Assembly: GCF_008520305.1 (NCBI RefSeq)
Contig: NZ_ML703254.1
Location: forward strand, 102,482-166,481
DNA length: 64,000 nt
DNA from: Mesorhizobium sp. SARCC-RB16n
Lineage (GTDB): Bacteria; Pseudomonadota; Alphaproteobacteria; Rhizobiales; Rhizobiaceae
Reading direction: 5' to 3'
Part shown: one piece after another, positions 25,043-44,696 of the stretch
How the letters are laid out: the number at the start of each line of letters is the position of its first letter
How positions within the stretch are numbered: position 1 is the stretch's first letter
Position numbers and translations under genes: made by a program
The notes under the pieces: generated by a model
What the model was told of the DNA's origin: nothing
What the model saw: the letters and a program-made list of their open reading frames with translations, nothing else
Databases searched by the model: none

Positions 25043-25067
25043 GGAACAAACCTTTTGCCCAGAAGTT
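25043..25067 (+). promoter_or_regulatory. EcfG-type promoter of the glycan cluster
   Basis: GGAAC (25043-25047), 17 nt, GTT (25065-25067), 34 nt before GTG 25102. It would drive at least the tightly overlapping genes up to 34052. Confidence 0.82.
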
Positions 25068-25101
25068 CGGGGCGCCAAGGTCACTTGTCCGAGGAGTCGT
25101 C

Positions 25102-26208
25102 GTGAAACGCATATTGGTTACAGGAGGCTGCGGCTTCATTGGTCGACACGTCACACAAGAACTCATCGCTCACCATTTTTCGGTTCGCATTCTTGACGCC
25201 CTGCTGGAGCAGGTGCATGCGGGCGAGGCGGTTGCGCTTCCTGCCGGAGCCGAACTGATCAAGGGCGACATCCGCGACCGCGAGGCCCTTGCCGAGGCGC
25301 TGGAAGGCGTCGACGCGGTCATTCATCTGGCGTCGGAAGTCGGCGTCGGGCAATCGATGTACGAGATCGCGCGCTATGTCGGCACAAACGATCTCGGCAC
25401 GGCGACGCTGCTCGAGGCGCTGATCAAACATCCAGTCGAGCGGATCGTCGTCGCCTCCTCGATGAGCGTCTATGGCGAAGGCCTCTATGCCACGCCCGAT
25501 GGACGGCGCATCGACAATGCCAGGCGCAAGGCAAGCGACATCAAAAGCGGACAGTGGAATCCGTTGTCGCCAGAAGGCGAGCCCCTTTCGCCAGTGCCGA
25601 CGGACGAAGAAAAACCGGTCGACCTCGCCTCGATCTATGCGCTGACAAAATACGCGCAGGAACGCGCCGTGCTGATCTTCGGCGAAGCGTACGGCATCGA
25701 TGCGGTTGCGTTGCGCCTGTTCAATGTTTTCGGCGCCGGCCAGGCGCTGTCGAATCCCTATACCGGCGTGCTGGCCAACTTCGCTTCACGTCTGGCCAAT
25801 GGGCAACGTCCGATGATCTTCGAGGACGGCGAACAGAAGCGCGATTTCGTTCATGTGCAGGACGTCGCCCGCGCCTTTCGCCTTGCGCTGCAGCAACGGC
25901 AGGCAAAGGGGCACGTCATCAATATCGGCAGCGGCCGGGCTTATACGATCAGCGAAGTCGCGCGATTGCTGGCGGAGGCCATGGGGATCCCGAACCGATC
26001 GCCCGAGCTGCTCGGCAAGGCGCGCTCCGGCGACATCCGCAACTGTTTCGCCGATATTTCCAAGGCACGTGAGCTGCTGGGTCTCGAACCGGGGCGCCGA
26101 TTGGAGAATTCTCTCGGCGATTTCGTCTCCTGGGTGCGCAACACGACCGCCGTCGACCGCGGCGCCGAAATGAAGCGCGAGCTCGAAGAGCGCGGGTTGG
26201 TGTCATGA
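25102..26208 (+). CDS. NAD-dependent sugar epimerase/dehydratase (extended SDR)
   Basis: A 368-residue extended SDR with nucleotide motif TGGCGFIGRH, catalytic Ser-Met-Ser region (VASSMSVYGEG) and YALTKYAQE for Tyr/Lys. It probably acts on a nucleotide-linked sugar, as a 4-epimerase or related enzyme. The start is GTG 25102 with GAGG 7-8 nt upstream. First gene of the cluster; its stop overlaps the next start by 4 nt. Confidence 0.87.
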   Translation: MKRILVTGGCGFIGRHVTQELIAHHFSVRILDALLEQVHAGEAVALPAGAELIKGDIRDREALAEALEGVDAVIHLASEVGVGQSMYEIARYVGTNDLGTATLLEALIKHPVERIVVASSMSVYGEGLYATPDGRRIDNARRKASDIKSGQWNPLSPEGEPLSPVPTDEEKPVDLASIYALTKYAQERAVLIFGEAYGIDAVALRLFNVFGAGQALSNPYTGVLANFASRLANGQRPMIFEDGEQKRDFVHVQDVARAFRLALQQRQAKGHVINIGSGRAYTISEVARLLAEAMGIPNRSPELLGKARSGDIRNCFADISKARELLGLEPGRRLENSLGDFVSWVRNTTAVDRGAEMKRELEERGLVS

Positions 26209-27284
26209 GCCCGGGCGCACGCAACCGTCGCGACGCCCCGGTCGCCATAGTCGGCGGCAGCGGCTTCATAGGATCAAACCTGGCCGACAGCCTGTTGTCG
26301 GACGGCGAGCCGGTGCTGGTGGTCGACAATTTCAGCCGTCCCGGCGTCGAACAGAACCTTGAATGGCTGACCCAGAAACACGGTGATCGCGTTACCGTCG
26401 AGACAATCGATGTGCGGGACGCCAACACGTTGGCACCCGTCTTGATGAGATCGAAGGCGATTTTCCATCTGGCCGCGCAAACGGCCGTCACCACCAGCCT
26501 GGTCCGGCCGGACGAGGATTTCGACATTAATCTTCGGGGAACGTTCAACGTGCTGGAAGCGGCGCGGCTGAGCGGCGAGCACATCCCGGTTGTTTTTGCC
26601 AGCACCAACAAGGTCTACGGCAGCCTTCCCGACGTCGCGGTTCGCGAGGACGGCGACCGCTACATAGCGTGCGACAGCGCCATCCAGGCCGGCGGCATCG
26701 ATGAAGCCCGCCACCTGGATTTCTGCACACCCTATGGCTGCTCCAAGGGAGCGGCGGACCAGTATGTGCTCGACTATGCCAAATCCTACGGCATGCCCAC
26801 GGCGGTGCTGCGGATGAGCTGCATCTACGGACCCCGCCAGTTTGGAACCGAGGACCAGGGCTGGGTAGCGCACTTCCTGCTCAGCGCCCTGGCAGGACGG
26901 CAAATCACCATCTACGGCGACGGCAGGCAGGTGCGAGACATCCTGCATGTCGCCGATGCGGTCGCCGCCTACAGGGCCGTGCTGGACCGGATCGACATCA
27001 CCAAGGCCCAGGCATTCAATCTTGGCGGTGGGCCCGAAAATGCGCTCAGCCTGCGTATGCTGTTGAGTGAAATCGGCAGTCTGACTGGCCGCGAGCTCTC
27101 GGTTCGCCACGACGGGGAACGGACCGGCGACCAGCCGTTCTTCGTCGCCGATACCCGCAAGATCGAGACCGCGCTTGGCTGGAAGGCACACGTCGCTTGG
27201 CGCGAGGGCATTCGCGATCTCGCCGACTGGCTGCAGCACCACCGGCTCGAGGCCCGACCCGAAGCCGTGAGGTACGTCGCATGA
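26205..27284 (+). CDS. CDP-paratose-2-epimerase-like extended SDR
   Basis: A 359-residue extended SDR with VGGSGFIGSN, Ser/Thr region FASTNKVYG and YGCSKGAADQY supplying Tyr and Lys. The segment MSCIYGPRQFGTEDQGWV is the hallmark of tyvelose/CDP-paratose 2-epimerases, so it likely inverts a sugar at C2 or handles a related nucleotide sugar. It overlaps both neighbours by 4 nt. Confidence 0.86.
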   Translation: MSPGARNRRDAPVAIVGGSGFIGSNLADSLLSDGEPVLVVDNFSRPGVEQNLEWLTQKHGDRVTVETIDVRDANTLAPVLMRSKAIFHLAAQTAVTTSLVRPDEDFDINLRGTFNVLEAARLSGEHIPVVFASTNKVYGSLPDVAVREDGDRYIACDSAIQAGGIDEARHLDFCTPYGCSKGAADQYVLDYAKSYGMPTAVLRMSCIYGPRQFGTEDQGWVAHFLLSALAGRQITIYGDGRQVRDILHVADAVAAYRAVLDRIDITKAQAFNLGGGPENALSLRMLLSEIGSLTGRELSVRHDGERTGDQPFFVADTRKIETALGWKAHVAWREGIRDLADWLQHHRLEARPEAVRYVA

Positions 27285-28573
27285 GGATCGCGCTGGTCAA
27301 CCCGTCCTGGATGTACGAAGACAGCATCTATTTCGGCTGCCGCCAGCCGCATCTGCCGCTGGAGTTCGGCTATTCGAAAGCCCTGCTCGAAGCGGCCGGC
27401 CATGAGGTGCTGCTGCTGGACGGCCAGTTGCAGAAGCTTGACAACGCAGGGCTCTGCGAACGTGTGGCTGATTTCGCGCCGGCAATGACGGTCGTCAGCA
27501 CCGCGCCGACCTATCTGTTCTGGCGCTGCGCACCGCCGGAGTTGCGCGTGCCGGCCGATTTCCTCAATCGTCTCGCCGGGCGCGGCGGACGCACGGTCGC
27601 CGTCGGGCCGCATGGTTCGGCCACGCCGGCGCCGACTTTGCGCAAGCTTGGCGTCGACATTGTCGTGCGCGGCGAATGCGAGGAAGTCGTCGCGGATCTT
27701 GCCCGGCGCGACGATTGGAACGCGGTGCCTTCGACCGCTTACCTGCGGGACGCCAAGCTGGTTTCGACCGGCGGCGTCCATGCCAGCTTGTTTGTCGATC
27801 ATCCGCCGCTTGAATGGCCATCCGACTGGATCGCCGCCCATTCGCATCACCATCACAGGTTCGATGACCAACAGCATGGGTTCGGGGCCGAGGTCGAGGC
27901 ATCCCGCGGCTGTCCGTACAATTGCAGCTTCTGCGCCAAGATCGATTTCCGCGATGCCTATCGCCGCCGAAACCACGAAGCGGTGGTGGCCGAAATCGAT
28001 CGTCTGATTGCCCAAGGCGTCGGCTACATCTACTTCATCGACGAAATCTTCCTACCGCAAAAAGCGTTGCTGGACGCGTTGGTCGCGCGCGATGTGAAAT
28101 TTGGCGTACAGACCCGCATCGATCTGTGGAAACCCGAGCTCCTGGAATTGCTGGGCGCGGCGGGCTGCGTCTCCATCGAAGCCGGCCTCGAAAGCCTGAC
28201 GGTGGAAGGGCGGGCGATGTTGGCCAAGCGCTGCCGGCTGGACACCGAGGAACTGGCCGCGCTGCTGGTCAAGGCCAGGCGCCACGTTCCCTTCGTTCAG
28301 GCAAATCTAATCGGTGTCGTCGAGGACGATCCTGCCCTTGTCGATTACTGGCGAGCCCATCTGATCGACAATGGCGTGTGGGCCAATGAACCCGTACCGC
28401 TTTATCCTTATCCGAGTTCGCCCAGCTATCGCGAGCTTTGGGGCGAACCCGATGATCTGGCCTGGGAGCGCGCCCATGACCATTACCTCGCATCGTTCCA
28501 GAAGTTCAGCGACATCCAGGAAAAGCGCCCGCGTCCGCTGGCGGAACTGGAGGCGGCATGTTGCGGACACTGA
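27281..28573 (+). CDS. B12-binding radical SAM enzyme
   Basis: A 430-residue protein with an N-terminal cobalamin-binding-type Rossmann domain (about 1-135) and a radical SAM core with CxxxCxxC at Cys211, Cys215 and Cys218 (CPYNCSFC). B12-dependent radical SAM enzymes methylate unactivated carbons or phosphinates, or rearrange rings, so it could put a C-methyl or other unusual mark on the glycan. NCBI has a named family for this type that I recall as co-occurring with CgeB-like glycosyltransferases. It overlaps both neighbours. Confidence 0.86.
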   Translation: MRIALVNPSWMYEDSIYFGCRQPHLPLEFGYSKALLEAAGHEVLLLDGQLQKLDNAGLCERVADFAPAMTVVSTAPTYLFWRCAPPELRVPADFLNRLAGRGGRTVAVGPHGSATPAPTLRKLGVDIVVRGECEEVVADLARRDDWNAVPSTAYLRDAKLVSTGGVHASLFVDHPPLEWPSDWIAAHSHHHHRFDDQQHGFGAEVEASRGCPYNCSFCAKIDFRDAYRRRNHEAVVAEIDRLIAQGVGYIYFIDEIFLPQKALLDALVARDVKFGVQTRIDLWKPELLELLGAAGCVSIEAGLESLTVEGRAMLAKRCRLDTEELAALLVKARRHVPFVQANLIGVVEDDPALVDYWRAHLIDNGVWANEPVPLYPYPSSPSYRELWGEPDDLAWERAHDHYLASFQKFSDIQEKRPRPLAELEAACCGH

Positions 28574-29658
28574 GGCCGCGCAGGCGCCGCATCCTGATGA
28601 CCGTCGATGCCATGGGCGGAGTATGGCGCTATGCGCTTGATCTCGGCCGGGAGCTGGTCAAGGGCGGCGACAGCATCGTGTTCGCCGGCCTGGGGCCGCG
28701 ACCATCCAGGCAACAGGCCGATGAGGCGCGGTCGTTCGCGACGCTCATCTGGCTGAACACTCCGCTGGATTGGATGACCCATGACGCCGGTGATCTCGAC
28801 GCTCTCCCGGGGGAATTGCATGCGCCGCTACGTGACCACGCCATCGACCTCGTCCATCTCAACGCGCCGACGCAGGCAGTTGGGTTGGATGCTCCCTGCC
28901 CTGTCATAGTGGTCTCGCATTCATGCGTGACGACATGGTTTCGCGCCGTCAGGGGACAGGCATTGGATAGCGCATGGACCTGGCAGAAAGAGCGCAACAA
29001 GCGCGGCTTCGACAGCGCCGATGCCGTCATCGCGCCGAGCCGCAGCCATGCAGAGCTGCTCGAGACCTGCTATGGCCCGATCGCATGCCTCCACGTCGTT
29101 GGAAATGGCGCGCGTCCGGTCCCAGGTGTCGAACACCGCCAACTGCTGGTCTTTGCCGCCGGCCGCTGGTGGGACGAGGGAAAGAACGTGGTGGCGCTCG
29201 ATCAGGCCGCCTCGTTGACGCAATGGCCCGTCTTTGCAGCCGGTTCGCTTCACGGCCCGAACAGCGAGCGCACCACCGTCAACAATGCCGTTCCTCTCGG
29301 AGCACTGCCGCATGACGAGGTGCGCTCCCTGATGGCCCGCGCCGGTATTTTCGTGTCTCCCTCGCTCTACGAACCGTTCGGCCTGGCGGCGCTGGAAGCG
29401 GCTATGTCGGCAACGCCCCTGGTGCTCTCTGACATCCCGACCTATCGTGAATTATGGGACAAGGCCGCGATGTTCTTCGATGCGCGCGACCCGCATGATC
29501 TCGCTGCCTGCATCAATCGTCTTTCCAGCGATACCGAGCATAGGCACGAGCTCGGCCGGGCAGCCCTTCGCCGAAGCCGCAGGTACACGTTGGGGAGGCA
29601 GGCAGCGGCGATGCGCGATGTCTATGAAAAGGCGGCGCTAGCCGCGGCGGAGCGCTGA
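28558..29658 (+). CDS. Family 4 glycosyltransferase
   Basis: A 366-residue GT-B enzyme. The N-terminal acceptor domain includes MTVDAMGGVWRYALDL, and the donor-binding EX7E-type motif is SPSLYEPFGLAALEAAMSA (about residues 258-276). There are no membrane segments. It overlaps the radical SAM gene by 16 nt and the next gene begins 2 nt after its stop. The linkage formed cannot be predicted. Confidence 0.86.
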   Translation: MLRTLRPRRRRILMTVDAMGGVWRYALDLGRELVKGGDSIVFAGLGPRPSRQQADEARSFATLIWLNTPLDWMTHDAGDLDALPGELHAPLRDHAIDLVHLNAPTQAVGLDAPCPVIVVSHSCVTTWFRAVRGQALDSAWTWQKERNKRGFDSADAVIAPSRSHAELLETCYGPIACLHVVGNGARPVPGVEHRQLLVFAAGRWWDEGKNVVALDQAASLTQWPVFAAGSLHGPNSERTTVNNAVPLGALPHDEVRSLMARAGIFVSPSLYEPFGLAALEAAMSATPLVLSDIPTYRELWDKAAMFFDARDPHDLAACINRLSSDTEHRHELGRAALRRSRRYTLGRQAAAMRDVYEKAALAAAER

Positions 29659-29660
29659 TC

Positions 29661-30791
29661 ATGCGCTTTTTGTTCTACACTCACTCGCTCGTCTCCGACT
29701 GGAACCACGGCAATGCCCATTTCCTTCGGGGTGTCATCCGGGAGCTGGTGGGGCGTCGGCATCAGGCCATTGCTCTTGAGCCGGCGGACGGCTGGAGCCG
29801 GTCGAACCTGCTGGCCGAGAAGGGATCCTACGCGATCGAACGCTTCCGCAAGGACTTCCCCGAATTGATGCCGGTGACCTATGATACCGGGTTCGATCAC
29901 GAGGCCTGGATCGCCGAGGCCGACGTGGTGATCGTCCACGAATGGACCGACCCGCAGCTTGTCGCTCGCATCGGCCGTGCCCGGGCGGGTGGCGGCAACT
30001 TCATCCTGCTGTTTCATGACACCCATCATCGGGCCGTGTCGGCCACGGAGGCCATTTCGGCGCTTCATCTGGAACATTATGACGGCATTCTCGCTTTTGG
30101 CGAAGCATTGCGCGAAAGCTACCTGCGCGCCGGCTGGGGTAAGCGTGTCTTCACCTGGCATGAAGCGGCTGATGATCGGCTTTTCAAGCCGCACCCGGAA
30201 ATCCATCGCACTTCCGATCTGGTCTGGATCGGAAACTGGGGCGACGACGAGAGGACGGCCGAAATCCGGGAGTTCCTGATCGAACCGGTGCGCGATCTCG
30301 GTCTTCAGGCCACTGTTCACGGTGTCCGCTATCCCAACCCGGCACTAGCCGATTTGGCAGCCGCCGGTCTGCGCTACGAAGGGTGGATCGCCAATGCCGA
30401 CGTGCCGAAGGCGTTCGCCGCGTATCGTGTCACGGTGCACATTCCGCGGCGCCCCTATCGTGAATACTTGCCCGGAATTCCGACAATCCGCATGTTCGAG
30501 GCACTCGCCTGCGGCATCCCGTTGATCTCGGCGCCATGGTCCGATGTCGAGCAGCTTTTCAGGCCCGGCGTCGACTTCCTGTTTGCCGAGGATGGCTCGC
30601 AAATGCGGCAACACCTTCGGGCGGTGCTGGCCGATCCCGATTTCGCGGCCTGCCTGGTGGCCTCGGGTCTTGAGACCATCCGCTCGCGGCACACCTGCCG
30701 TCACCGCGTCGACGAGTTGTTCGACGTGCTCTCGCACTGCACGAACCGGCATACCGCCCACACGACCGCCGCAAAGGAAGCCGCCGCATGA
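29661..30791 (+). CDS. CgeB-like glycosyltransferase 1
   Basis: A 376-residue GT-B-type protein of the CgeB/spore-maturation-like group (start YTHSLVSDWNHGNAHFLRGV; C-terminal donor site PTIRMFEALACGIPLISAPW). One of four paralogues in the cluster (29661, 30788, 31879, 37948), which suggests stepwise extension of one glycan. It overlaps the next gene by 4 nt. Confidence 0.83.
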   Translation: MRFLFYTHSLVSDWNHGNAHFLRGVIRELVGRRHQAIALEPADGWSRSNLLAEKGSYAIERFRKDFPELMPVTYDTGFDHEAWIAEADVVIVHEWTDPQLVARIGRARAGGGNFILLFHDTHHRAVSATEAISALHLEHYDGILAFGEALRESYLRAGWGKRVFTWHEAADDRLFKPHPEIHRTSDLVWIGNWGDDERTAEIREFLIEPVRDLGLQATVHGVRYPNPALADLAAAGLRYEGWIANADVPKAFAAYRVTVHIPRRPYREYLPGIPTIRMFEALACGIPLISAPWSDVEQLFRPGVDFLFAEDGSQMRQHLRAVLADPDFAACLVASGLETIRSRHTCRHRVDELFDVLSHCTNRHTAHTTAAKEAAA

Positions 30792-31882
30792 AGATCGCAT
30801 TCTATGGATCGAGCCTTTTGTCGTCCTATTGGAACGGTGCCGCGACCTATTATCGTGGCTTGCTGAAGGCGCTTTCCAAACTGGGCTACGAAATCACCTT
30901 CTATGAGCCCGACGTTTATGACAGGCAGAAGAACCGGGACATCGAGGCGCCGGAATGGTGCACCGTCGTTGTTTACGAGGCGACCGGGCATGCGATGATG
31001 CAGGTGGCGGCGCGTGCCGCCGAAGCCGACATCGTCGTCAAGGCGAGCGGTGTCGGCTTCGAGGACGAGGCGCTGCTGCGCGCCGTGCTCAACCACGCCC
31101 GGAGCGACGCGCTGATCGTTTTCTGGGACGTGGACGCGCCGGCCACGCTCGCCCAGTTGCGCAACGAGCCGGACCACCCGCTGCATCGTGCGCTGCAAGA
31201 AATCGATCTTGTGTTGACCTATGGCGGCGGCGATCCCGTGGTCTGGGCCTATCGTGCCATGGCCGCGACCGAGTGCGTGCCAATCTACAATGCCCTCGAT
31301 CCCGGAACGCACCACCCGGTCGCCAGCAATGCGCGTTTTGCTTGCGACCTGGCGTTCCTGGGAAACAGGCTGCCGGATCGTGAAGCGCGTGTCGAATCGT
31401 TCTTCCTCGATCCCGCGAGCCAACTGCCCCAACAACGTTTTCTGCTCGGCGGATCTGGCTGGGGCGACAAGCCGCTCCCCGCCAATGTCGACTGGCTCGG
31501 CCATGTCGGCACTCGCGATCACAATGCCTTCAATGTCACGCCGAAGGCCGTGCTGAACATCAGCCGCGACAGCATGGCCGCGAACGGGTTTTCACCAGCC
31601 ACGCGTATCTTCGAGGCGGCAGGCGCCGGCGCTTGCCTGATCACCGATGCCTGGCTGGGCGTCGAGCAGTTCCTGAAACCCGGCGAGGAAATCCTTGTGG
31701 CGCGCGACGGCGGCGACGTCGCGGAGATCATGCAGGCGCTGACCCCTAGTCGGGCAAAGGCAATTGGCCAGGCCGCACTTCGCCGCGTTCTTGCTGAACA
31801 TACCTATGCACTGCGGGCGGCCGTGGCCGATACCGTCTTCAAGCGGCATTTGACGCGCGGGACCGTGGAGGCGGCCGAATGA
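30788..31882 (+). CDS. CgeB-like glycosyltransferase 2
   Basis: A 364-residue paralogue (YGSSLLSSYWNGAATYYRGL at the start; TRIFEAAGAGACLITDAWLG donor site). Unlike the others, the central region carries DVDAPATLAQL, a variant of the DIDTPVTLAKL motif of copies 3 and 4. It overlaps both neighbours by 4 nt. Confidence 0.83.
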   Translation: MKIAFYGSSLLSSYWNGAATYYRGLLKALSKLGYEITFYEPDVYDRQKNRDIEAPEWCTVVVYEATGHAMMQVAARAAEADIVVKASGVGFEDEALLRAVLNHARSDALIVFWDVDAPATLAQLRNEPDHPLHRALQEIDLVLTYGGGDPVVWAYRAMAATECVPIYNALDPGTHHPVASNARFACDLAFLGNRLPDREARVESFFLDPASQLPQQRFLLGGSGWGDKPLPANVDWLGHVGTRDHNAFNVTPKAVLNISRDSMAANGFSPATRIFEAAGAGACLITDAWLGVEQFLKPGEEILVARDGGDVAEIMQALTPSRAKAIGQAALRRVLAEHTYALRAAVADTVFKRHLTRGTVEAAE

Positions 31883-32982
31883 CCAAGAAGCTGGACATCG
31901 TCTTTCTCGGCCTGTCGCTGTCCTCGTCCTGGGGAAACGGCCATGCCACCACTTTTCGAGGTCTGCTGAAAGGCCTCCACCAACTCGGCCACCGCGTGAC
32001 TTTTCTGGAGCGCGATGTGCCGTGGTACGCCAACCACCGCGATTTGCGCGATCCAGATTTCTGTGCCTTGCGCTACTATGAAACCGTACAGGAACTGCAA
32101 GGCGACTATGCACGGTGCCTGCAACAGGCCGATGTCGTGGTGATCGGTTCTTTCGTGCCGGAAGGGCGCGCGGTCATCGACATCGTCGCTTCCCTTTGCA
32201 AAGGACAACTCTGCTTTTACGACATCGACACGCCTGTGACCCTGGCAAAGCTGTCGGCAGACGATTGCGACTATTTGAGATGGCGCCAGATCCCTTACTT
32301 CGACATCTATTTCTCTTTCACCGGCGGCCCGATGCTTACCGATCTGGCGCAGACCTTCGGCGCACGCCGCGCCGAACCGCTCTACTGTTCGGTCGATCCG
32401 GAACGGCACTACCGCACCCCGGATCCGATCCGCTGGGACCTCGGCTATCTCGGTACTTACAGCATGGACCGACAGGCCACGCTAAATGCGCTCCTGCTCG
32501 AGCCTGCACGGCGCATGCCGGATCGGCGTTTCATCGTGGCCGGCTCGCAATATCCCTCCGACATCGAGTGGCCCGACAATGTCGAGCGCATCGAACACTT
32601 GCCGCCGGCCGATCATGCCGCATTCTACAGCCGTCAGCGCTACACGCTGAACGTTACACGTAGTTCCATGATTGCCGCGGGATGGTCGCCCAGCGTGCGC
32701 CTTTTCGAAGCCGCCGCTTGTGGCACGCCGATCATTAGCGACCGCTGGCCAGGGCTCGACAGTTTCTTTCCCGCATCAACGATCCACACGGCCAAGAAGC
32801 CGGATGATGTCGTCGCCATCCTGGCTCGGGAATCGGCTCGGACACGTCTCGCCATGGCCGACCGGGCATGCAAACTCGTCCTTTCCTCCCACACCGGTGT
32901 GGCCCGGGCTCGCGAATTCATCACGGCGCTTACGCAAAAGGGGGCGGTGGTCCTCGATCTCGATATCGGAAGTGCAGCATGA
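31879..32982 (+). CDS. CgeB-like glycosyltransferase 3
   Basis: A 367-residue paralogue (LSLSSSWGNGHATTFRGLL start, FYDIDTPVTLAKL centre, VRLFEAAACGTPIISDRWPG donor site). It is most similar to copy 4 at 37948, which shares LPPADH and YLGTY blocks, so a duplication within the cluster is likely. Confidence 0.83.
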   Translation: MTKKLDIVFLGLSLSSSWGNGHATTFRGLLKGLHQLGHRVTFLERDVPWYANHRDLRDPDFCALRYYETVQELQGDYARCLQQADVVVIGSFVPEGRAVIDIVASLCKGQLCFYDIDTPVTLAKLSADDCDYLRWRQIPYFDIYFSFTGGPMLTDLAQTFGARRAEPLYCSVDPERHYRTPDPIRWDLGYLGTYSMDRQATLNALLLEPARRMPDRRFIVAGSQYPSDIEWPDNVERIEHLPPADHAAFYSRQRYTLNVTRSSMIAAGWSPSVRLFEAAACGTPIISDRWPGLDSFFPASTIHTAKKPDDVVAILARESARTRLAMADRACKLVLSSHTGVARAREFITALTQKGAVVLDLDIGSAA

Positions 32983-33005
32983 CTGGCAGACAGGAGAAAA
33001 TCGCG

Positions 33006-34122: not shown

Positions 34123-34308
34123 ATGCAACCCAAGCGATCCTCTGCCGATATCGACAAGATGGCGGAACGGGAGACGGCTGCCTATTTGCGGCGAGCCTCG
34201 ATCACCTATCTGGAGTGCTGCATCAGCCTGATGATGACGCATCTGCAGCGGGAAGAAGTGGTCACTATTCTCGAGCAGGAAGCAGACATGCTGCGAAGGC
34301 TGGATTGA
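34123..34308 (+). CDS. Small hypothetical protein
   Basis: A 61-residue helical protein (RASITYLECCISLMMTHLQR, then EADMLRRLD). GGAGGA 7 nt before ATG 34123 favours this start over ATG 34108. It follows the decarboxylase-like gene on the same strand and is the last gene before a convergent neighbour. The function is unknown. Confidence 0.6.
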   Translation: MQPKRSSADIDKMAERETAAYLRRASITYLECCISLMMTHLQREEVVTILEQEADMLRRLD

Positions 34309-36060: not shown

Positions 36061-36090
36061 CTATCGATTCCCAATGCTTGCCGTGCAGCC

Positions 36091-36167: not shown

Positions 36168-36192
36168 GGAACATTCCGGCACGGTGGCGGTT
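36168..36192 (+). promoter_or_regulatory. EcfG-type promoter of inositol-phosphate synthase gene
   Basis: GGAAC (36168-36172), 17 nt, GTT (36190-36192), 44 nt before GTG 36237. Confidence 0.8.
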
Positions 36193-36236
36193 CGGCGCAA
36201 GGAACTTACCTTTGAGCAGCATAGGACGGCAGTTTC

Positions 36237-37340
36237 GTGGGATCGAAAAAAGTTCGTGTTGGTATCGTCGGAGTCGGCAATTGCGCATCCTCCCTGGTGC
36301 AGGGCCTCTCCTATTATCGCCACGCAAAAAGCAACGAGCCGATCCCGGGGCTGATGCATGCCGACCTGGGTGGCTATCACGTCGACGACATCGAAATTGT
36401 CTGCGCGTTCGATGTCGCCAAAAGCAAGGTTGGCCGCGACGTCGCGGAGGCGATCTACGCCGCTCCGAACAACACCTTCCGCTTTGCCGAGGCACCGACG
36501 ACCGGCGTTCGCGTCGAACGTGGACCGACGCTTGACGGGATCGGCAAATATTTGCGCGACGAGATCGAAGAGGCACCCGAACCGGTTGCCAATGTCAGCG
36601 AGATCCTGCGCGACAGCGGAGCCGATGTGCTGGTGTCCTACTTGCCGGTGGGTTCGGAGGAGGCGACGCGCTTCTATGCCGAATGCGCGCTCGAGGCCGG
36701 CTGCGCCTTCGTCAATTGCATACCGGTTTTCATCGCCTCGCGTCCGGAATGGCGCCGGCGCTTCGAACAACGCGGGCTGCCGCTGGTCGGCGACGACATT
36801 AAGAGCCAGGTCGGCGCGACAATCGTGCACCGGCTGCTGGCCAATCTCTTTCGCGAGCGCGGCGTGCGCATCGATCGCACCTATCAGCTGAATTTCGGCG
36901 GCAACACCGATTTTCTCAACATGCTGGAACGCGAGCGGCTGGAATCGAAGAAGATCTCCAAGACGCAATCGGTGACCAGCCAGCTCGATGTTCCCCTCGA
37001 GCCGGGCAACATTCATGTCGGACCGAGCGATCATGTGCCTTGGCTCACCGACCGAAAATGGGCCTACATCCGCGTCGAAGGAACGACCTTCGGCGGCGTG
37101 CCGCTGAATGCTGAGCTCAAGCTGGAAGTGTGGGATTCGCCAAATTCAGCCGGCGTCGTAATCGACGCGGTGCGCTGCGCCAAGCTGGCGCTCGACCGCG
37201 GCATCGCCGGCGCGCTGACAGGCCCTTGCAGCTATTTCATGAAGTCGCCTCCCGAACAGTTCACCGACGCCGCGGCCCGACAGCGCACGCTCGCCTTCAT
37301 CGCCGGCAAGGACGATCCTTTGCTGGATGCCGCGGAATGA
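36237..37340 (+). CDS. ino1: myo-Inositol-1-phosphate synthase
   Basis: A 367-residue enzyme that converts glucose 6-phosphate to inositol 1-phosphate using NAD. Motifs: [13 protein letters not shown] (NAD binding), [13 protein letters not shown] (active site) and [16 protein letters not shown] (C-terminal). Its compact size matches the actinobacterial/archaeal type rather than the larger eukaryotic one. The start is GTG 36237. It overlaps the next gene by 4 nt and has its own EcfG promoter, which points to an inositol-containing product of the cluster. Confidence 0.92.
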
Positions 37341-37933
37341 CGACGACATTCTTTTTGATCCGCCATGCGGCGCACGACAATGTCGGCTCCTATCTTGCCG
37401 GGCGCATGGCCGGTGTCTGCCTCGGCGAGGCCGGCAAGGCTCAAGCCGAGCACCTTGGAGGCCGCATGGCCCGAGAGACGATCGCGGCGATTCTATGCAG
37501 CCCGCGCGAGCGCACGCAGGAGACGGCGCTGCCAATCGCTCTCGCTTGCGGTGTCGGTGAAATCGCGATCTGCGCCGAACTCGACGAGATCGACTTCGGC
37601 GACTGGTCGGGCAAGACCTTCGATGAACTGAACGAGGACGCCGGTTGGCGTGCTTGGAACGACCAGCGGCAGGAGGCCAGGACGCCCAGCGGCGAGACCA
37701 TGCTGGATGTCCAGCAGCGCATCGTCTCGCTGATGAACCGCGTGCGCGAGCTGCATCAGCACCAATGCGTCGCCCTGATTAGCCACGCCGATGTGATCAA
37801 GGCCGCCGTCTGCAAGGTGCTTGGCTTACCAGTCGGCGAGTGCTTTCGCTTCGACATCGATCCCGCCTCGATCACGACGATCGCGTCGGGCGACTGGGGC
37901 TCAAAGCTTCTGCGATTGAATGAAGCTGCCTGA
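37337..37933 (+). CDS. Histidine phosphatase family protein
   Basis: A 198-residue phosphoglycerate-mutase-like phosphatase: FLIRHAAHD with the phospho-His, [10 protein letters not shown] with conserved Arg, and [11 protein letters not shown] with the second His. Translationally coupled to ino1, so it may remove phosphate from inositol phosphate or from a sugar phosphate made by the cluster. Confidence 0.87.
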
Positions 37934-37947
37934 CGAGGAAATTCCCG

Positions 37948-39048
37948 ATGCGGATGGTCATTTTCGGTCTCACCGTTACATCTTCATGGGGGAACGGCCA
38001 TGCCACGCTGTGGCGCGGGTTGATCCGCGCCCTCGCCCAGCTGGGCTGGTCCATCACCTTTTTCGAACGCGACACTCCCTATTATGCGGGGACCCGTGAT
38101 CTGGATCAGCTCGACGGCGGCAACGTCGTGATCTATCCGGACTGGGAGGACATCCGCCGCGTTGCCGAGCGGGCGATGTCGCAAGCGGATGTCGTCGTCG
38201 TCACCTCCTACTGCCCTGACGCCGTTGAGGCTTCGCGCCTGGCCCAGCAGGCAAGTCGCGGGCTGCGCGTCTTCTACGATCTCGATACTCCAGTCACGCT
38301 TGCCCGCGTCGAGCACGGTGAGCGCCCGCCCTATTTCGGGCCAGAGGGTCTTGCCGACTACGACCTCGTCCTGAGCTACACCGGCGGACCGGCGCTCGAG
38401 GCGCTGAAGACGGTGCTGAGCGCGCGCCGCGTGATGCCGCTCTACGGGCATGTCGATCCGGACCGGCACCGGCCGGCAGAGAAGCGAGCCGAATTCGCCG
38501 GTGATTTGTCCTATCTCGGGACCTATGCGGCGGATCGCCAGGCCGGCGTCGAAAAGCTGCTGGTCCGCCCGGCCGTGCGCCTGCCTGATCAGCGCTTCAT
38601 CATTGGCGGCGCACAATATCCGCAGGAATTCCCGTGGAGCGAGAACATCTTTTTCGTCAGGCATCTGCCGCCCGCCGATCATCCGGCGTTCTTCTCGTCG
38701 TCACGGCTGACGCTGAACGTCACCCGGGAAGCCATGGCACAAAAGGGCTGGTGCCCGTCGGGACGGCTCTTCGAAGCGGCCGCGTGTGGGGCTGCCATCG
38801 TCACCGACGCATGGCCAGGCCTCGCGGACTTCTTCGAACCCGGCCGCGAAGTCCTGCTTGCGCATGACACGGATGACGTGGTCGCCGCGCTGCAATTGCC
38901 GGAGCTCGAGCTCGACGGCATCCGAAGGCGTGCTCGCGAACGGGTCTTGAGCGAGCACACTTCCGCCAGGCGCGCAGCGGTTCTGGATAAAATTCTGGCC
39001 GATGCCTCGCAAAATCCGGTCGGCGAACCGATGAGGGAAGCAGTCTGA
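37948..39048 (+). CDS. CgeB-like glycosyltransferase 4
   Basis: A 366-residue GT-B-type paralogue (TVTSSWGNGHATLWRGLI start; VFYDLDTPVTLARV is the centre; GRLFEAAACGAAIVTDAWPG is the donor site). Close to copy 3. Overlaps the nucleotidyltransferase gene by one base. Confidence 0.84.
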   Translation: MRMVIFGLTVTSSWGNGHATLWRGLIRALAQLGWSITFFERDTPYYAGTRDLDQLDGGNVVIYPDWEDIRRVAERAMSQADVVVVTSYCPDAVEASRLAQQASRGLRVFYDLDTPVTLARVEHGERPPYFGPEGLADYDLVLSYTGGPALEALKTVLSARRVMPLYGHVDPDRHRPAEKRAEFAGDLSYLGTYAADRQAGVEKLLVRPAVRLPDQRFIIGGAQYPQEFPWSENIFFVRHLPPADHPAFFSSSRLTLNVTREAMAQKGWCPSGRLFEAAACGAAIVTDAWPGLADFFEPGREVLLAHDTDDVVAALQLPELELDGIRRRARERVLSEHTSARRAAVLDKILADASQNPVGEPMREAV

Positions 39049-39851
39049 TGTTGGGCATCGTGCCCGCTGCCGGACGTGGCAGCCGCATCCAACCGCTCGG
39101 CTTCTCGAAGGAGCTGCTGCCGGTTGGCAGCCGAATCGACGGCCAGACCGAACGTCCCTGCGCGGTAAGCGAGTATCTGGTGCGGCGCATGGTCCAGGCC
39201 GGCGTCGATAAGATTTGCTTCATCATCGGATCGGGCAAATCCGACATTCTCGAATACTATGCTGCCGGCTATGGTGAGGCGGCAGCGCTCTTTGTGGTGC
39301 AGCCCAACCCCGTCGGTCTCTGCGATGCGATTTTCCGGGCAGCGCCGCTCGTGGCGCCCGACGAGGTCGTCCTGGTCGGCCTCCCAGATACGATCTGGTT
39401 TCCCGAGGACGGGTTCTGTTATTTGCCTGACGATCAGCTTTCATTTCTACTCTTCCCGGTTGATCGCCCGGAATTCTTCGACGCCGTCGTCACCGAGGAT
39501 GACGAGCGCGTTATCGAAATCCAGGTCAAGCGACAGGATGCCTCCACGAACTGGGTTTGGGGCGCGTTCAAGATGCCCGGCCAGATCCTGCATCGGCTTG
39601 CGGTACTCTGGCGCGAGCGGGAAGGCCGTGACGAATACATCGGCACATTGATCAATGCCTACCTTGCGGCCGGCGGTGTGGCCTACGGTATTAAAGCAGG
39701 GTCCGCCTATGTCGATGTCGGCACTTTCAACGGCTATCGCACAGCCCTGCGGTTGCTTGAAAACGGCGTTCCATCCGCTCATCACCAGCCCCCAACGATA
39801 ATGCCCGGCGCGCATTCGCATGTACCCGTCGTTCCGGGCGAAGGAGCGTGA
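39048..39851 (+). CDS. Sugar nucleotidyltransferase (RmlA-like)
   Basis: A 267-residue GT-A-fold nucleotidyltransferase with the NTP-binding signature PAAGRGSRIQPLGFSKELLP and sugar-binding segments VLVGLPDTIWFP and VDVGTFNGYRTAL. It would activate a sugar 1-phosphate (or, less usually, inositol phosphate) for the cluster's transferases. Confidence 0.88.
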   Translation: MLGIVPAAGRGSRIQPLGFSKELLPVGSRIDGQTERPCAVSEYLVRRMVQAGVDKICFIIGSGKSDILEYYAAGYGEAAALFVVQPNPVGLCDAIFRAAPLVAPDEVVLVGLPDTIWFPEDGFCYLPDDQLSFLLFPVDRPEFFDAVVTEDDERVIEIQVKRQDASTNWVWGAFKMPGQILHRLAVLWREREGRDEYIGTLINAYLAAGGVAYGIKAGSAYVDVGTFNGYRTALRLLENGVPSAHHQPPTIMPGAHSHVPVVPGEGA

Positions 39852-39853
39852 CC

Positions 39854-40612
39854 ATGTTGCATTCCCATGCCGAAATCCGCCGGCGCATCGACGCGCTCGG
39901 CCCGTGGTTCCACAACATGGAACTGGCCGGCGTCGAAACCGCTCCCGACCACTTTCTCGGCAATTATCCACTGATCAAATGGCGCAAATTCGCCGATGCG
40001 ATACCCGCCGATCTGGCCGGCATGACTGTGCTGGATATCGGCTGCAATGCCGGTTTCTATTCGATCGAGATGAAACGGCGAGGGGCCGCCCGCGTTCTCG
40101 GCATCGATTTCGACGAGGCCTATCTGGCGCAAGCCCGCTTTGCCGCCGAGATCGCGGACTGCGAGATCGAATTCCAGAAACTGTCGGTCTACGACGTTGG
40201 TGCCCTGCGCGAGACATTCGATGTCGTGCTGTTCATGGGGGTGCTTTACCATCTGCGCCACCCCTTGCTCGCGCTCGATCTGATCCGTGAGCATGTCGCC
40301 GGTGACCTGATGATCTTTCAGTCCATGCAACGCGGCAGCAAGGATCTGCCCGAGCTGGAAGAGAACTATCATTTCTGGACGCATGACCTGTTCGACCGGC
40401 CGGAATTTCCCAAGCTGCATTTCATCGAACACCGCTATGCCGACGACCCGACCAACTGGTGGATCCCGAACCGGGCTTGCACCGAAGCAATGCTGCGCAG
40501 CGCGGGTTTCGAGATCGTTCTGCATCCCGAGCAGGAGGTCTATTTCTGCCGTGCTGCTGGCGACCCGGTCGGCGGCGCGATTTATCCGTCGAAAGGAAAG
40601 CTCCATGATTGA
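39854..40612 (+). CDS. SAM-dependent methyltransferase
   Basis: A 252-residue class I methyltransferase with SAM motif VLDIGCNAGFYSIEM, acidic motif GIDFDEAYL and MGVLYHLRHPL. It resembles a family I recall under an NCBI TIGR name that co-occurs with B12 radical SAM and CgeB-like genes. AAGGAG lies 7 nt before ATG 39854; GTG 39848 is an alternative. Likely O-methylation of the glycan. Confidence 0.86.
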   Translation: MLHSHAEIRRRIDALGPWFHNMELAGVETAPDHFLGNYPLIKWRKFADAIPADLAGMTVLDIGCNAGFYSIEMKRRGAARVLGIDFDEAYLAQARFAAEIADCEIEFQKLSVYDVGALRETFDVVLFMGVLYHLRHPLLALDLIREHVAGDLMIFQSMQRGSKDLPELEENYHFWTHDLFDRPEFPKLHFIEHRYADDPTNWWIPNRACTEAMLRSAGFEIVLHPEQEVYFCRAAGDPVGGAIYPSKGKLHD

Positions 40613-41537
40613 AGCCGCGATGATCTGGAACGAGCCCAACAACAAATCGCATTGGGACCCAGAGCTCGACCCCGATTGGAGCCGCTTTGCCAGGATGGCA
40701 GTCCTGTCGGCGGGCGCGATCGCTTCGGAGAACCCGGCTCTGACAAAAGTGCTTGGCGGCATTTCGCCGATAGACCCCGGCTTTATCACGCGCATGAAGG
40801 AATACGGCGTGCTGGACCATGTCGACGCCGTCGCGGTGCACGGCTTTCCTCTCGACTGGAACCTGTGGCAAATCCAGGAATGGCCGCAGAAGATCGGCGA
40901 GATCGCCACCGTTACCGACCTCCCCATATGGGTCAGCGAGGTCGGCGTATCGACCTTCGGGGCCGAGGAAATACAGGTCTGGGGACTCAAGCGAACGGCC
41001 GAATTGCTGCTCGGCAGTGCACCACGCATCCAGTGGTACAGCCTCTATGACCTTCCGCGTGAATGGGAAGCAACGACGCGGCATCGCGAAGCGGAGGGAT
41101 CCTCCTATTATCGTCACTTCCACATGGGGCTGCTGCGCCAGGACGGCACGCCGAAGCCGGCGCTCGAAGAATTCCTGCGCTACACACCCGCAATGGGGCT
41201 GGTGCAGTGGTTTCATTTCGAGGACCCGCGACTTGACGACGCCGTCGCCTGGATGAAGCGGCTCGGCGTCACCAACATGCGCACGGGCCTTTCCTGGGCC
41301 GACAGCTTCAGGCCGAATGCATTGAACTGGTTTGATCGACAGATGGAGGCACTCGCCGATTTCGATGTCACAGTCACTTTCTGCTTCACGCCTGAACATC
41401 GCGGAATGATGCCTCACCACACCAGCCCTCCACTGGTGCCCGAGGAATTCGCCGAGTTCTGTGCAGCGATGGTCCGCCGCTACGCGCCCGGTATGACGTC
41501 CACCTCGCTCCCGACCCAGCGGGCCTCGGCTGCGTGA
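40605..41537 (+). CDS. Glycosidase-like protein with swapped half-barrels
   Basis: A 310-residue protein resembling GH39/GH5-type TIM-barrel glycosidases. It begins with what is normally the second half: IWNEPN (acid/base Glu10) and WVSEVGVS (nucleophile Glu112). It then continues with a segment typical of the first half of a barrel (RLGVTNMRTGLSWADSF, then VTVTFCFTPEHRGMM and FCAAMVRRYAPG). Both catalytic Glu are present. The order suggests a circular permutation or a two-module protein. There is no signal peptide, so it acts in the cytoplasm. AAAGGAAAG precedes ATG 40605. Confidence 0.72.
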   Translation: MIEAAMIWNEPNNKSHWDPELDPDWSRFARMAVLSAGAIASENPALTKVLGGISPIDPGFITRMKEYGVLDHVDAVAVHGFPLDWNLWQIQEWPQKIGEIATVTDLPIWVSEVGVSTFGAEEIQVWGLKRTAELLLGSAPRIQWYSLYDLPREWEATTRHREAEGSSYYRHFHMGLLRQDGTPKPALEEFLRYTPAMGLVQWFHFEDPRLDDAVAWMKRLGVTNMRTGLSWADSFRPNALNWFDRQMEALADFDVTVTFCFTPEHRGMMPHHTSPPLVPEEFAEFCAAMVRRYAPGMTSTSLPTQRASAA

Positions 41538-41642
41538 GGCTTTGATGCGACCAGGTCCGCGATCATTGGATGCACCGGCCGGAGTGGAAGCTCACGGGCC
41601 CGCCGCCAATTCACTGCCTCTGGCACCGTGGCTCGGCCGGCC

Positions 41643-42704
41643 ATGACACTCACTATCCTCAATGTCGCCTATTCCCTCGCGCCCGTCGGACCGGATGCGG
41701 TCGGCGGGGCCGAACAGGTTCTGTCGATGCTCGACCGGGCACTGGTCCGCGCGGGTCATCGGTCCATCGTCGTCGGCTGTCGGGGCTCCAGCGCAAGCGG
41801 CATCCTTGTGGAAACACCGGCGGAAAGCGGCGTGCTCGACGAGGCCGCCAAGAGCCGTGCGCAACAGGCTCATCGCGTCGCGATCGCTTCTGCCCGCGCC
41901 AGCTGGCCGATCGATGTGGTTCATCTGCATGGCATCGATTTCGACGCCTATCTGCCGGACGATGGCCCGACCTTGGTGACCCTTCACCTGCCTCTGGACT
42001 GGTATCGGACCGAGGCACTGTGCCCGACGCGCAACGACCTGTGGCTTCATGCGGTTTCGGCCGCCCAAGAGAAAACAGCGCCACCAGGCGCCAGACTGGC
42101 ACCGCCCATTCCGAATGGCGTCGACATAGAGGCGTTCAGCCTGCTGCAACCGAAGCGCGACTTCGCACTGCTTCTTAGCCGGATCTGCCCGGAAAAGGGC
42201 ATCCACCTGGCGCTGGACGCGGCCAAGCAAGCAGGTGTGCCGCTGGTTGTCGGCGGCAAGGTCTATCCTTATGAAACGCACACACGCTACTTTCGCGAAG
42301 AAGTCCAACCTCGCCTCGATGGGCGCCGCCGCTTCCTCGGTCCGCTCGGTTTCACTGCCAAGCGGCGCTTTCTCAGCGCAGCGCGCTGTCTGGTCATTCC
42401 TAGCCTTGCCGCCGAGACCAGCTCACTTGTCGCCATGGAGGCGCTGGCCTGCGGCACACCGGTGGTCGCCTTTCCGAATGGCGCGCTTCCCGATGTGATC
42501 GAGCACGGCAGGACCGGTTTTCTCGTCAACACGGTCGACGAGATGGCCCAGGCCATCGTTGCGGCGTCCAGCCTGGACGGCGAGACATGCCGGGCGGAGG
42601 CGCGGCGACGGTTTTCGCTGGAACGGATGATCTCGTCTTATATGGACGCCTATCAAGCGCTGGCGCGATTTGGCACCGATGCCGGCCGCCTCGCCTTCAC
42701 ATGA
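41643..42704 (+). CDS. Family 4 glycosyltransferase
   Basis: A 353-residue GT-B glycosyltransferase: glycine-rich start (AYSLAPVGPDAVGGAEQVLS), IPNGVDIEAF, and donor-site block AETSSLVAMEALACGTPVVAF. The intergenic gap of 105 bp before it is the largest on this strand of the cluster after ino1 and shows no EcfG promoter. It overlaps the acetyltransferase gene by 4 nt. Confidence 0.86.
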   Translation: MTLTILNVAYSLAPVGPDAVGGAEQVLSMLDRALVRAGHRSIVVGCRGSSASGILVETPAESGVLDEAAKSRAQQAHRVAIASARASWPIDVVHLHGIDFDAYLPDDGPTLVTLHLPLDWYRTEALCPTRNDLWLHAVSAAQEKTAPPGARLAPPIPNGVDIEAFSLLQPKRDFALLLSRICPEKGIHLALDAAKQAGVPLVVGGKVYPYETHTRYFREEVQPRLDGRRRFLGPLGFTAKRRFLSAARCLVIPSLAAETSSLVAMEALACGTPVVAFPNGALPDVIEHGRTGFLVNTVDEMAQAIVAASSLDGETCRAEARRRFSLERMISSYMDAYQALARFGTDAGRLAFT

Positions 42705-43693
42705 GCCAACTGGTGTTGCGCAGCGAGATCATCGATGACCCGGGGCAATTCGATACCCTTGCGCCACACTGGTGGAAACTGTGGGAGCAGAGTTCCTCGG
42801 CGACGCCGTTTCAGTCTCCCGCCTGGCTGGTGCCATGGTGGCGCACATTCGCGCCCGGCGACCTGGCGACGGTCGCGGTCTGGCGCGGAGGCGATCTGAT
42901 AGGGCTGGCGCCGCTCTATCTCGAGCACGGGATCGCCGGCTCGAAATTGCTTCCGGTCGGCATTTCGCTCAGCGACTATCTGGACATCCTGTGCGTTCCC
43001 GGTACCGAAGCAACGGTCGTCGCCGCTATTGCCGAAAAGATCCTTTCAGTTGAATGGTCTCAATGGACCTTGTCGGATTTGCCGGAAGGCGGCGCCGGTC
43101 TTGCGATTTCACATCCCGATCTGAAGGCAGGGCGGCCAGCCGCTCATAGCGCTTGCCCCGTGCTTGCCATTGCCGGCGACGAAACCCTTGCGGGCTGCGT
43201 GCCTTCCCGACGCAGGCGCCAGCTGCGACGGGCGCGACAGGCTGCGTCCAGACGCGGCCGGATCGCGCTGTCGTCGGCACGAGGCAATCCGCAAACCTTC
43301 CTCGATCAGTTGATCCGCCTGCATGACGCACGCTGGGCAGGACGCGGAGGTGGCTTGTTGGCCGACGTCCCCGTAGAGCAATTCCACAGGCGCTCGCTTC
43401 CCTTGCTCGACGCTCGCGGTCTGGTCAGGTGCTGGCTGTTCGCGATCAACGGAAGGACGGTCGGCGCCTATTACGGCCTTCATCATCGCGGTCGTGCCTA
43501 TGCCTATCTCGGCGGCTTCGACCCTGACTATGCCGAAGAGAGCCCAGGCGCGATCCTGATCGGCCACGCGATCGCGGAGTCGATCCGCGAAGGTGCGCGC
43601 GAGTTCGACTTCCTGCGCGGTCAGGAGGCCTACAAATATGGTTGGGGCGCCATCGATAAGTGGACCATGCGCAGGGTCTGGACGCGGAGCTGA
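42701..43693 (+). CDS. BioF2/FemAB-like GNAT acetyltransferase
   Basis: A 330-residue double-GNAT-fold protein of the Acetyltransf_6 type (ATPFQSPAWLVPWW at the start; C-terminal GAREFDFLRGQEAYKYGWG). Such proteins transfer acyl or aminoacyl groups in polysaccharide loci. Overlaps the preceding glycosyltransferase gene by 4 nt. Confidence 0.82.
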   Translation: MSQLVLRSEIIDDPGQFDTLAPHWWKLWEQSSSATPFQSPAWLVPWWRTFAPGDLATVAVWRGGDLIGLAPLYLEHGIAGSKLLPVGISLSDYLDILCVPGTEATVVAAIAEKILSVEWSQWTLSDLPEGGAGLAISHPDLKAGRPAAHSACPVLAIAGDETLAGCVPSRRRRQLRRARQAASRRGRIALSSARGNPQTFLDQLIRLHDARWAGRGGGLLADVPVEQFHRRSLPLLDARGLVRCWLFAINGRTVGAYYGLHHRGRAYAYLGGFDPDYAEESPGAILIGHAIAESIREGAREFDFLRGQEAYKYGWGAIDKWTMRRVWTRS

Positions 43694-43697
43694 CGTC

Positions 43698-44696
43698 ATG
43701 AGTGCAACCTGGCCGGAATCCGCCCAGCGCCGGAGAGCGATTAAATTAGCCGTCGAAGACTGCATGGCGGATGGCGTTTGCGCCGAAGCCGTCGTCGCCA
43801 GGCTGGCGCTTCATCCGCAGACGGGGATCAGGGCGGGGGAGCTGGCGGAGATCGTGCTGGATATCGTTCCGTCGGATTGGCGAGATGGGGAAAGACTGCA
43901 AGAGGTAGCCGGGCTGCTTCGCCGCAAACCAGGCTCCTTTGCCACGTTGCGAGCGACAGGCGCTGCCGTTCGGCACGCTCGCGACGACAACGAGACGGAT
44001 GCCGCCGTCGTCATGCGGCTGGCCTCGAGCTTCGATGCGGCGGCAGCGATTTCGGGGACAGCAAGTGTCCAGCTCGCATCGCTTGGCGATGAGGACAGGC
44101 TGTCAGCCACGACCGACGAAATCGTTGCCTGGCTCGAGGAGCAGAACTTCACCGGCACCAGCCGGAATATTCTGGACATTGGTTGCGGCATCGGCCGTTT
44201 CGAGCATGCGCTTTCCAAATCCTTCAATCGGATGGTCGGCATCGATATATCCTCGCGGATGATATCCATTGCCTCCGAGCGGTGCGTCGCGCTGCGCAAC
44301 GTCGAATTGCGGCAAACCTCCGGCCTCGATTTGGCCGAATTCGATGACAGCAGTTTCGATTGCGTGCTGGCGGTCGACAGCTTTCCTTATCTGGTTTTGG
44401 CCGGCATGGCTGAGCGGCATTTCGATGAGATTGCGCGCGTTCTGAAACGGCCAGGCTGGCTGGCCGTGCTGAACTATTCCTATCGCGGATCGTTTTTTTT
44501 GGACAGCGCCGATGTCAGTCGTCTGGCGGAAGCTCACCAATTGCGGGTTGTGATCAATGGCGAGAAGCCGTTTCGGTCATGGGATGGCGACGCTTTCCTG
44601 CTTACTCGTGGCGGCGGAACATTACTGCGCGACGCCAGTTCGGACACCGAACCAGAGGCACTGAAAAATGCCCTAATCCGAAGGAGGAAATCATGA
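43698..44696 (+). CDS. SAM-dependent methyltransferase with N-terminal helical extension
   Basis: A 332-residue protein. The first 130 residues are helical and unrecognised; the methyltransferase domain follows (NILDIGCGIGRFEHAL, GIDISSRMISIA, FDCVLAVDSFPYLV). It is 4 nt downstream of the acetyltransferase gene and is the last clear gene of the glycan cluster. Confidence 0.83.
   Translation: MSATWPESAQRRRAIKLAVEDCMADGVCAEAVVARLALHPQTGIRAGELAEIVLDIVPSDWRDGERLQEVAGLLRRKPGSFATLRATGAAVRHARDDNETDAAVVMRLASSFDAAAAISGTASVQLASLGDEDRLSATTDEIVAWLEEQNFTGTSRNILDIGCGIGRFEHALSKSFNRMVGIDISSRMISIASERCVALRNVELRQTSGLDLAEFDDSSFDCVLAVDSFPYLVLAGMAERHFDEIARVLKRPGWLAVLNYSYRGSFFLDSADVSRLAEAHQLRVVINGEKPFRSWDGDAFLLTRGGGTLLRDASSDTEPEALKNALIRRRKS

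Follow-up and report, generated by a model that had tools for sequence, protein, structure and literature searches.

Gene content and distribution of the cluster

The 64,000-nucleotide stretch of Mesorhizobium sp. SARCC-RB16n DNA analyzed here (the window; contig NZ_ML703254.1, positions 102,482 to 166,481) contains, at positions 25043 to 44696, a cluster of sugar-related genes that includes one for a radical S-adenosylmethionine (SAM) protein with a B12-binding domain, a member of family TIGR04295. Three Mesorhizobium genomes match this 19.65-kb region over nearly its entire span, with DNA identities of 84, 89, and 91%, and many adjacent genes of the cluster overlap. All gene types named in an original prediction made from the sequence were found, namely, epimerase-type SDR proteins, a UXS-like enzyme, a nucleotidyltransferase, six glycosyltransferases, two methyltransferases, an acyltransferase, a phosphatase, the B12-binding radical SAM protein, and the inositol-phosphate synthase Ino1. 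That list omitted the gene for a 580-residue protein (34318 to 36060, minus strand) and a glycosidase-like gene (40605 to 41537). The features of the cluster are as follows.

25043..25067, plus strand: EcfG-type motif (GGAAC-N17-GTT), 34 nucleotides 5' of the SDR1 start
25102..26208, plus strand: SDR1, GalE-like nucleoside diphosphate (NDP)-sugar epimerase (PF01370, 186.5 bits; best PDB match 6wjb, E 4.4e-43)
26205..27284, plus strand: SDR2, NDP-sugar 2-epimerase-like (CDP-tyvelose 2-epimerase 9rl0, E 3.2e-78; 1orr, E 3.2e-76)
27281..28573, plus strand: B12-binding-domain radical SAM protein, TIGR04295 (684.2 bits; cutoff, 400)
28558..29658, plus strand: GT4a, family 4 glycosyltransferase (PF00534, PF13439)
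29661..30791, plus strand: GTa, PF13524 glycosyltransferase (126.1 bits)
30788..31882, plus strand: GTb, PF13524 glycosyltransferase (126.6 bits)
31879..32982, plus strand: GTc, PF13524 glycosyltransferase (124.2 bits)
32979..34052, plus strand: UXS, relative of UDP-glucuronate decarboxylase (UDP-xylose synthase; human enzyme 2b69)
34123..34308: 61-residue open reading frame between UXS and the gene for the 580-residue protein
34318..36060, minus strand: divergent gene for a 580-residue protein, no Pfam family over cutoff
36168..36192, plus strand: EcfG-type motif (GGAAC-N17-GTT), 44 nucleotides 5' of the ino1 start
36237..37340, plus strand: Ino1, inositol-3-phosphate synthase (PF01658, 120.9 bits; cutoff, 27; 1gr0, E 1.8e-146)
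37337..37933, plus strand: histidine-family phosphatase (PF00300, 149.6 bits)
37948..39048, plus strand: GTd, PF13524 glycosyltransferase (134.4 bits)
39048..39851, plus strand: nucleotidyltransferase (PF00483, 38.7 bits; cutoff, 21.2)
39848..40612, plus strand: methyltransferase TIGR04290 (384.5 bits; cutoff, 300)
40605..41537, plus strand: PslG/GH39-like glycosidase, circular permutant (profile match and structure model)
41628..42704, plus strand: GT4b, family 4 glycosyltransferase (PF13692, 74.6 bits)
42701..43693, plus strand: GNAT-type acyltransferase (PF13480, 123.4 bits)
43698..44696, plus strand: MT2, second methyltransferase (PF08241, 66.3 bits)

The nearest relatives of SDR2 are CDP-tyvelose 2-epimerases, and those of SDR1 are GalE-like proteins, further examples of which are also among its PDB matches. 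UXS is closest to UDP-glucuronate decarboxylase, and its match to the human enzyme (E 3e-112) supports in silico a UDP-xylose route. The gene content likewise supports, in silico, the synthesis of an oligosaccharide.

Both TIGR04295 (B12_rSAM_oligo) and TIGR04290 (meth_Rta_06860) exceed their curated NCBIfam cutoffs, and neither family name appears in the literature searched, whose reach excluded most subscription journals. The cluster is found repeatedly among alphaproteobacteria, many bacteria of soil and plants included. Its marker, TIGR04290, is over its cutoff in 14 of 289 genomes sampled from the class, 37 of 397 from the order, and 14 of 398 from the phylum; these samples overlap and comprise 52 different positive genomes. 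About 9% of the sampled order, including Mesorhizobium and Sinorhizobium strains, therefore carries this apparently stress-controlled sugar pathway. Neighborhood conservation had been put forward as a check on the prediction, and gene order proved to be conserved across 80 radical SAM loci. Counting only loci with enough flanking sequence, the radical SAM gene is accompanied by SDR1 (74/74), SDR2 (77/77), GT4a (78/79), GTa (77/77), GTb (73/75), GTc (73/75), and UXS (57/69). The comparison of whole clusters covered 50 places in 49 genomes and 8 plasmid loci, leaving out two Mesorhizobium genomes (G002 and G003) and one genome with its hit at a contig end (G295).

Exchange of the radical SAM gene for a dehydrogenase pair

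In Sinorhizobium meliloti, Roseomonas mucosa, and Rhizobium acidisoli, the clusters are without a radical SAM gene and instead encode a zinc dehydrogenase (ZnDH) and a Gfo/Idh/MocA oxidoreductase. Among the 52 genomes with TIGR04290, 29 have TIGR04295, 21 have the dehydrogenase pair, none has both, and 2 have neither (Fisher test, 1.3e-12, kinship ignored). TIGR04295 and ZnDH were searched for separately in G002, G003, and G295, and the Gfo/Idh/MocA search covered the other 49 genomes; of the 49 genomes in which both dehydrogenases were looked for, the two occur in an identical set of 21. The two genomes with neither state (G140 and G295) also show no SDR1 match at an E value of 1e-60, in a search that had no positive control, and the contigs that carry their cluster hits are 21 and 8 kb long, so that assembly gaps are the likely explanation. 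ZnDH (E 1e-90, with up to five candidates scored per genome) was found in 19 of the 397 order genomes, all of them TIGR04290 positive, and in none of the 360 cluster-negative ones. The same holds for TIGR04295, found in 13 of the 289 class genomes, all TIGR04290 positive, and in none of the 275 without the cluster. No match to ZnDH or to the Gfo/Idh/MocA protein at 50% identity occurs in the flanks of any of the 80 radical SAM loci.

In a tree built from four core proteins, whose 55 rows comprise 32 with the radical SAM gene, 22 with the pair, and 1 with neither, the state must change 10 times by parsimony, and at least nine changes are forced by well-supported branches. This tree was built by a quick search with SH-aLRT as the only support measure; it leaves out G074, G538, and G499, and the rows of G263 and L004 are identical. 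Nine independent pairs can be drawn on well-supported branches, of which eight differ in opposite ways for the radical SAM gene and the dehydrogenases, none differs in the same way, and one shows no difference (P = 0.0078). Apart from the exchange, the two states are found with almost the same genes. Two genomes with the pair (G345 and G381) and two with the radical SAM gene (G565 and G443) all carry ino1, the phosphatase, GTd, the nucleotidyltransferase, the standalone glycosidase, and GT4b, with a phosphopentomutase-like gene additionally present in G345 and G381.

We infer that the radical SAM gene has repeatedly been displaced by two unrelated dehydrogenases doing the same obligatory step. 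That there is one such step is suggested because no genome has both systems and only two have neither, and those two also lack SDR1. Since an oxidize-then-reduce pair replaces a single radical enzyme, the inversion of one sugar or cyclitol stereocenter is suggested; ZnDH and the Gfo/Idh/MocA protein would most naturally invert such a center through a ketone, and the shared step is probably a stereo-inversion. The exchange and the mutual exclusion are new here, and the available portions of the literature searched contain no description of them or of the permuted glycosidase discussed in the next section. As a consequence of the repeated swap, the function of the TIGR04295 family is directly testable by moving genes between strains.

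The radical SAM protein scores 45.9 bits against PF04055 (cutoff, 29.5) and 32.3 bits against the B12-binding domain PF02310, barely over the cutoff of 32.1. All 84 radical SAM proteins compared have the CxxxCxxC motif and, outside it, three further invariant cysteines (C83, C296, and C318), which would suit a role as candidate hydrogen donors of the kind expected in radical SAM epimerases. A B12-binding domain together with CxxxCxxC, as found here, is the domain pattern of cobalamin-dependent radical SAM C-methyltransferases. At the step that BtrN catalyzes, other producers have an NAD(P)-dependent dehydrogenase. BtrN itself is a radical SAM dehydrogenase that oxidizes a cyclitol in butirosin synthesis, which sets a precedent for alcohol-dehydrogenase chemistry on a cyclitol by a radical SAM enzyme, but it has a twitch domain, whereas the cluster protein has a B12-binding domain (PMC9012708). 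It also differs in that two dehydrogenases replace one enzyme in the cluster. NeoN and HygY are described as radical SAM epimerases that invert a sugar stereocenter (PMC10991966); the likeness to the proposed step is one of description, made without sequence comparison. Among solved structures, AprD4 is the best match to the radical SAM profile (E 6.8e-10, residues 170 to 355); it differs in being a diol dehydratase that works with a reductase (PMC5461906). Tentatively, and with somewhat less than even confidence, TIGR04295 may be regarded as a B12-domain sugar or cyclitol epimerase that is freely exchanged for an oxidize-and-reduce pair, within a widespread cytoplasmic stress-oligosaccharide pathway that also has a circularly permuted glycosidase.

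The permuted glycosidase and the optional inositol branch

The protein encoded at 40605 to 41537 matches the PslG profile with an E value of 3.8e-6 (residues 3 to 185 to residues 132 to 320), and its relatives are annotated as beta-xylosidases. A related domain is fused to the N terminus of SDR2 in loci L001, L004, and L009, where the fusion is one annotated gene; in the sampled genomes, it was deduced from the position of matches with 32 to 37% identity. Residues 7 to 184 of the window glycosidase match approximately residues 122 to 299 of the fused domain (E 5e-25 to 1e-29), whereas its C-terminal part, ending at residue 293, matches approximately residues 1 to 115 (E 8e-9 to 1e-13). The two halves thus match in swapped order, which identifies the standalone glycosidase as a circularly permuted version of the fused domain. 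Its predicted model has eight strands, with a predicted local distance difference test (pLDDT) score of 84.1 and a predicted template modeling (pTM) score of 0.84, and complete barrels align to it. All 65 standalone and all 19 fused sequences contain the WNEPN motif, and a second glutamate motif is found in 61 of 65 standalone sequences (as W[VI][ST]E[AVT]G) and in all 19 fused ones. The protein thus resembles PslG (GH39) in its profile match and in its conserved catalytic-type glutamate motifs but differs from the canonical barrel in its permuted strand order. This circular permutation is new here, and the fused and permuted glycosidases form a natural pair for studying the rewiring of a catalytic barrel.

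The form of the glycosidase goes together with the presence of ino1. In 21 genomes searched at an E value of 1e-20, ino1 is absent from all 10 that have only the fused type and present in all 8 without the fused form; it is also present in G672, which has both types, and absent from G645 and G140, in which the type is unclear. This weakens the prediction of a possibly inositol-containing product, in that inositol is not a constant part of it, since all 10 fused-type-only genomes lack the gene. The combination of Ino1, family 4 glycosyltransferases, and a phosphatase recalls mycothiol synthesis, and the structure closest to Ino1, 1gr0, is the Mycobacterium tuberculosis enzyme. The family 4 proteins of the cluster, however, reach only 39.4 and 47.2 bits, whereas the cutoff for MshA is 462.5.

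Apparent stress control, proposed product, and alternatives

The EcfG-type motifs claimed in the original prediction are present at both operon heads, 5' of SDR1 and of ino1, and are conserved in related clusters. Of 46 related clusters, 21 have the motif no more than 300 bp 5' of SDR1 (Fisher test, 1e-14), and of 41 clusters, 23 have it within the same limit 5' of ino1 (4e-18; kinship ignored in both tests); for eight other, internal cluster genes, the motif occurs in 14 of 405 upstream regions. It agrees with the published Sphingomonas EcfG consensus, GGAAC-N17-20-GTT (PMC6599016), and by this motif the operon heads would belong to an EcfG general stress regulon. The two strands of the whole window contain 30 EcfG-type matches (N16 to N18), whereas first-order resampling predicts 4.75 (no more than 11 in any of 60 resamples); for this reason, the window looks like a general stress-gene island. 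Some matches are intragenic, such as those at 27116 inside SDR2 and 44616 inside MT2, so not all 30 are promoters. Judged from these motifs, the cluster is apparently under general stress control via EcfG.

Two neighbors of the cluster touch on the same subject. A sigma gene of the EcfG type (45233 to 45817; Pfam PhyR_sigma2 match) adjoins it, and several related clusters also have such a sigma gene nearby, in Tistrella directly upstream of SDR1. A long catalase gene lies beyond the cluster, with an EcfG-type motif just 5' of it (46008).

In agreement with the original prediction, Pfam and NCBIfam searches detected no family of flippases, polymerases, or exporters among the cluster proteins. 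Transport, polymerase, and lipid-carrier families are likewise absent from the cluster, to which the search was confined, so that export genes may be present elsewhere in the genome, and no match of the kind that marks a Wzx/Wzy-dependent or ABC-exported polysaccharide locus was obtained within it. A crude hydropathy scan found no multi-pass membrane protein among the cluster proteins, each of which has at most one notable hydrophobic stretch. The suggestion that the product may be a glycolipid is unsupported, because the search of the cluster turned up neither lipid-carrier nor membrane enzyme families.

On balance, these data favor, by a little more than even confidence, a stress-controlled cytoplasmic pathway that would build a soluble modified oligosaccharide with a presumed protective role, with one obligatory step performed by either the radical SAM protein or the dehydrogenase pair. 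The best reading of the product from gene content is a soluble, UDP-xylose-derived, methylated stress oligosaccharide that would be inositol linked in one of the two cluster types. In such a pathway, UXS would make UDP-xylose, SDR1 and SDR2 would epimerize nucleotide sugars, and GT4a and GTa to GTc, plus GTd and GT4b where present, would assemble the chain. Where the cluster is of the ino1 type, inositol may be supplied by Ino1 and the phosphatase, or an inositol-phosphate glycoside may be released by them, to serve as acceptor or cap. The methyl- and acyltransferases would decorate the chain and the GH39-like enzyme would trim or recycle it, while the B12-domain radical SAM protein, or ZnDH with the Gfo/Idh/MocA protein, would carry out the obligatory step, probably the inversion of one sugar or cyclitol stereocenter.

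Several observations weigh against this proposal. The mean hydropathy over 19 residues reaches at least 1.6 in four cluster proteins (GTc, 1.60; Ino1, 1.67; the phosphatase, 1.77; the 580-residue protein, 1.98), many operon heads lack the EcfG-type motif, including those of both Azospirillum clusters (L002 and L003), and the completeness of the sampled genomes is not stated. Pyruvyltransferase and F420-hydrogenase-like genes (at least 45% identity) were seen only in pair-type clusters (G409, G589, G573, G566, G672, and L006, in the last at 511 to 2986), so the products may differ between the two states. In addition, the TsrM-type methylase 6wte and TokK are almost as close to the TIGR04295 protein as AprD4 is, which leaves methylation some plausibility; these three structures, the nearest among those solved, do not discriminate between the possible chemistries. 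The last two points, together with a B12-binding domain that reaches its Pfam cutoff, would fit an ordinary cobalamin-dependent C-methyltransferase, in which case the pair would make a different modification and the two states would be product variants. The exchange of TIGR04295 for a dehydrogenase pair speaks against C-methyl transfer, as do the absence of genomes with both systems, the restriction of the neither state to two genomes without SDR1, which suggests one obligatory step, and the recurrence of the switch at least nine times. This alternative is considered rather unlikely.

A further alternative to the soluble cytoplasmic product is a polysaccharide of the cell surface or a glycolipid, with the genes for its flippase, polymerase, or exporter lying elsewhere in the genome. 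PslG is known from an exopolysaccharide locus, and both the PslG-like glycosidase and the six glycosyltransferases would suit a surface glycan, as would export genes beyond the reach of a search that covered the cluster. This explanation is nonetheless unlikely in view of the lack of transport, polymerase, and lipid-carrier families in the cluster, and no such gene is annotated among the core genes of relatives L001 to L006, L008, and L009.

No Pfam family passes its cutoff in the 580-residue protein. Relatives of this protein occur in 90 plasmid records, 89 of which cover at least 80% of it, and some sit in clusters L003, L006, and L008. The stretch DEGPGLSGSS is invariant in an alignment of 15 relatives and resembles a phosphoribosyl pyrophosphate (PRPP) loop, and the C-terminal part is reminiscent of kinases. 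An aminoglycoside-like pseudo-oligosaccharide built on a cyclitol as a secondary metabolite would account for this PRPP-like loop, for the joint presence of a cyclitol synthase with a phosphatase and with either a radical SAM enzyme or dehydrogenases, and for AprD4 as the closest solved radical SAM structure, but it is very improbable given that no aminotransferase family was found among the cluster proteins, that ino1 is absent from 10 of 10 fused-type genomes, and that EcfG-type motifs stand at the operon heads.

Further genes in and around the cluster recur to different extents. The 61-residue open reading frame (34123 to 34308) has matches in many loci of Mesorhizobium, whereas the other clusters compared have none. 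A CheB-CheR-PAS-HWE kinase gene lies at 19394 to 22786, and the annotated surroundings of clusters L001, L005, and L009 likewise include CheB- or CheR-type genes. Positions 52764 to 58926 hold a sugar-type ABC import operon that includes genes for a Gfo/Idh/MocA protein and a xylose-isomerase-like protein, and the S. meliloti cluster is likewise adjoined by a sugar ABC operon. A Ku gene is found at 60840 to 61805, and the Tistrella cluster has Ku and LigD genes downstream.

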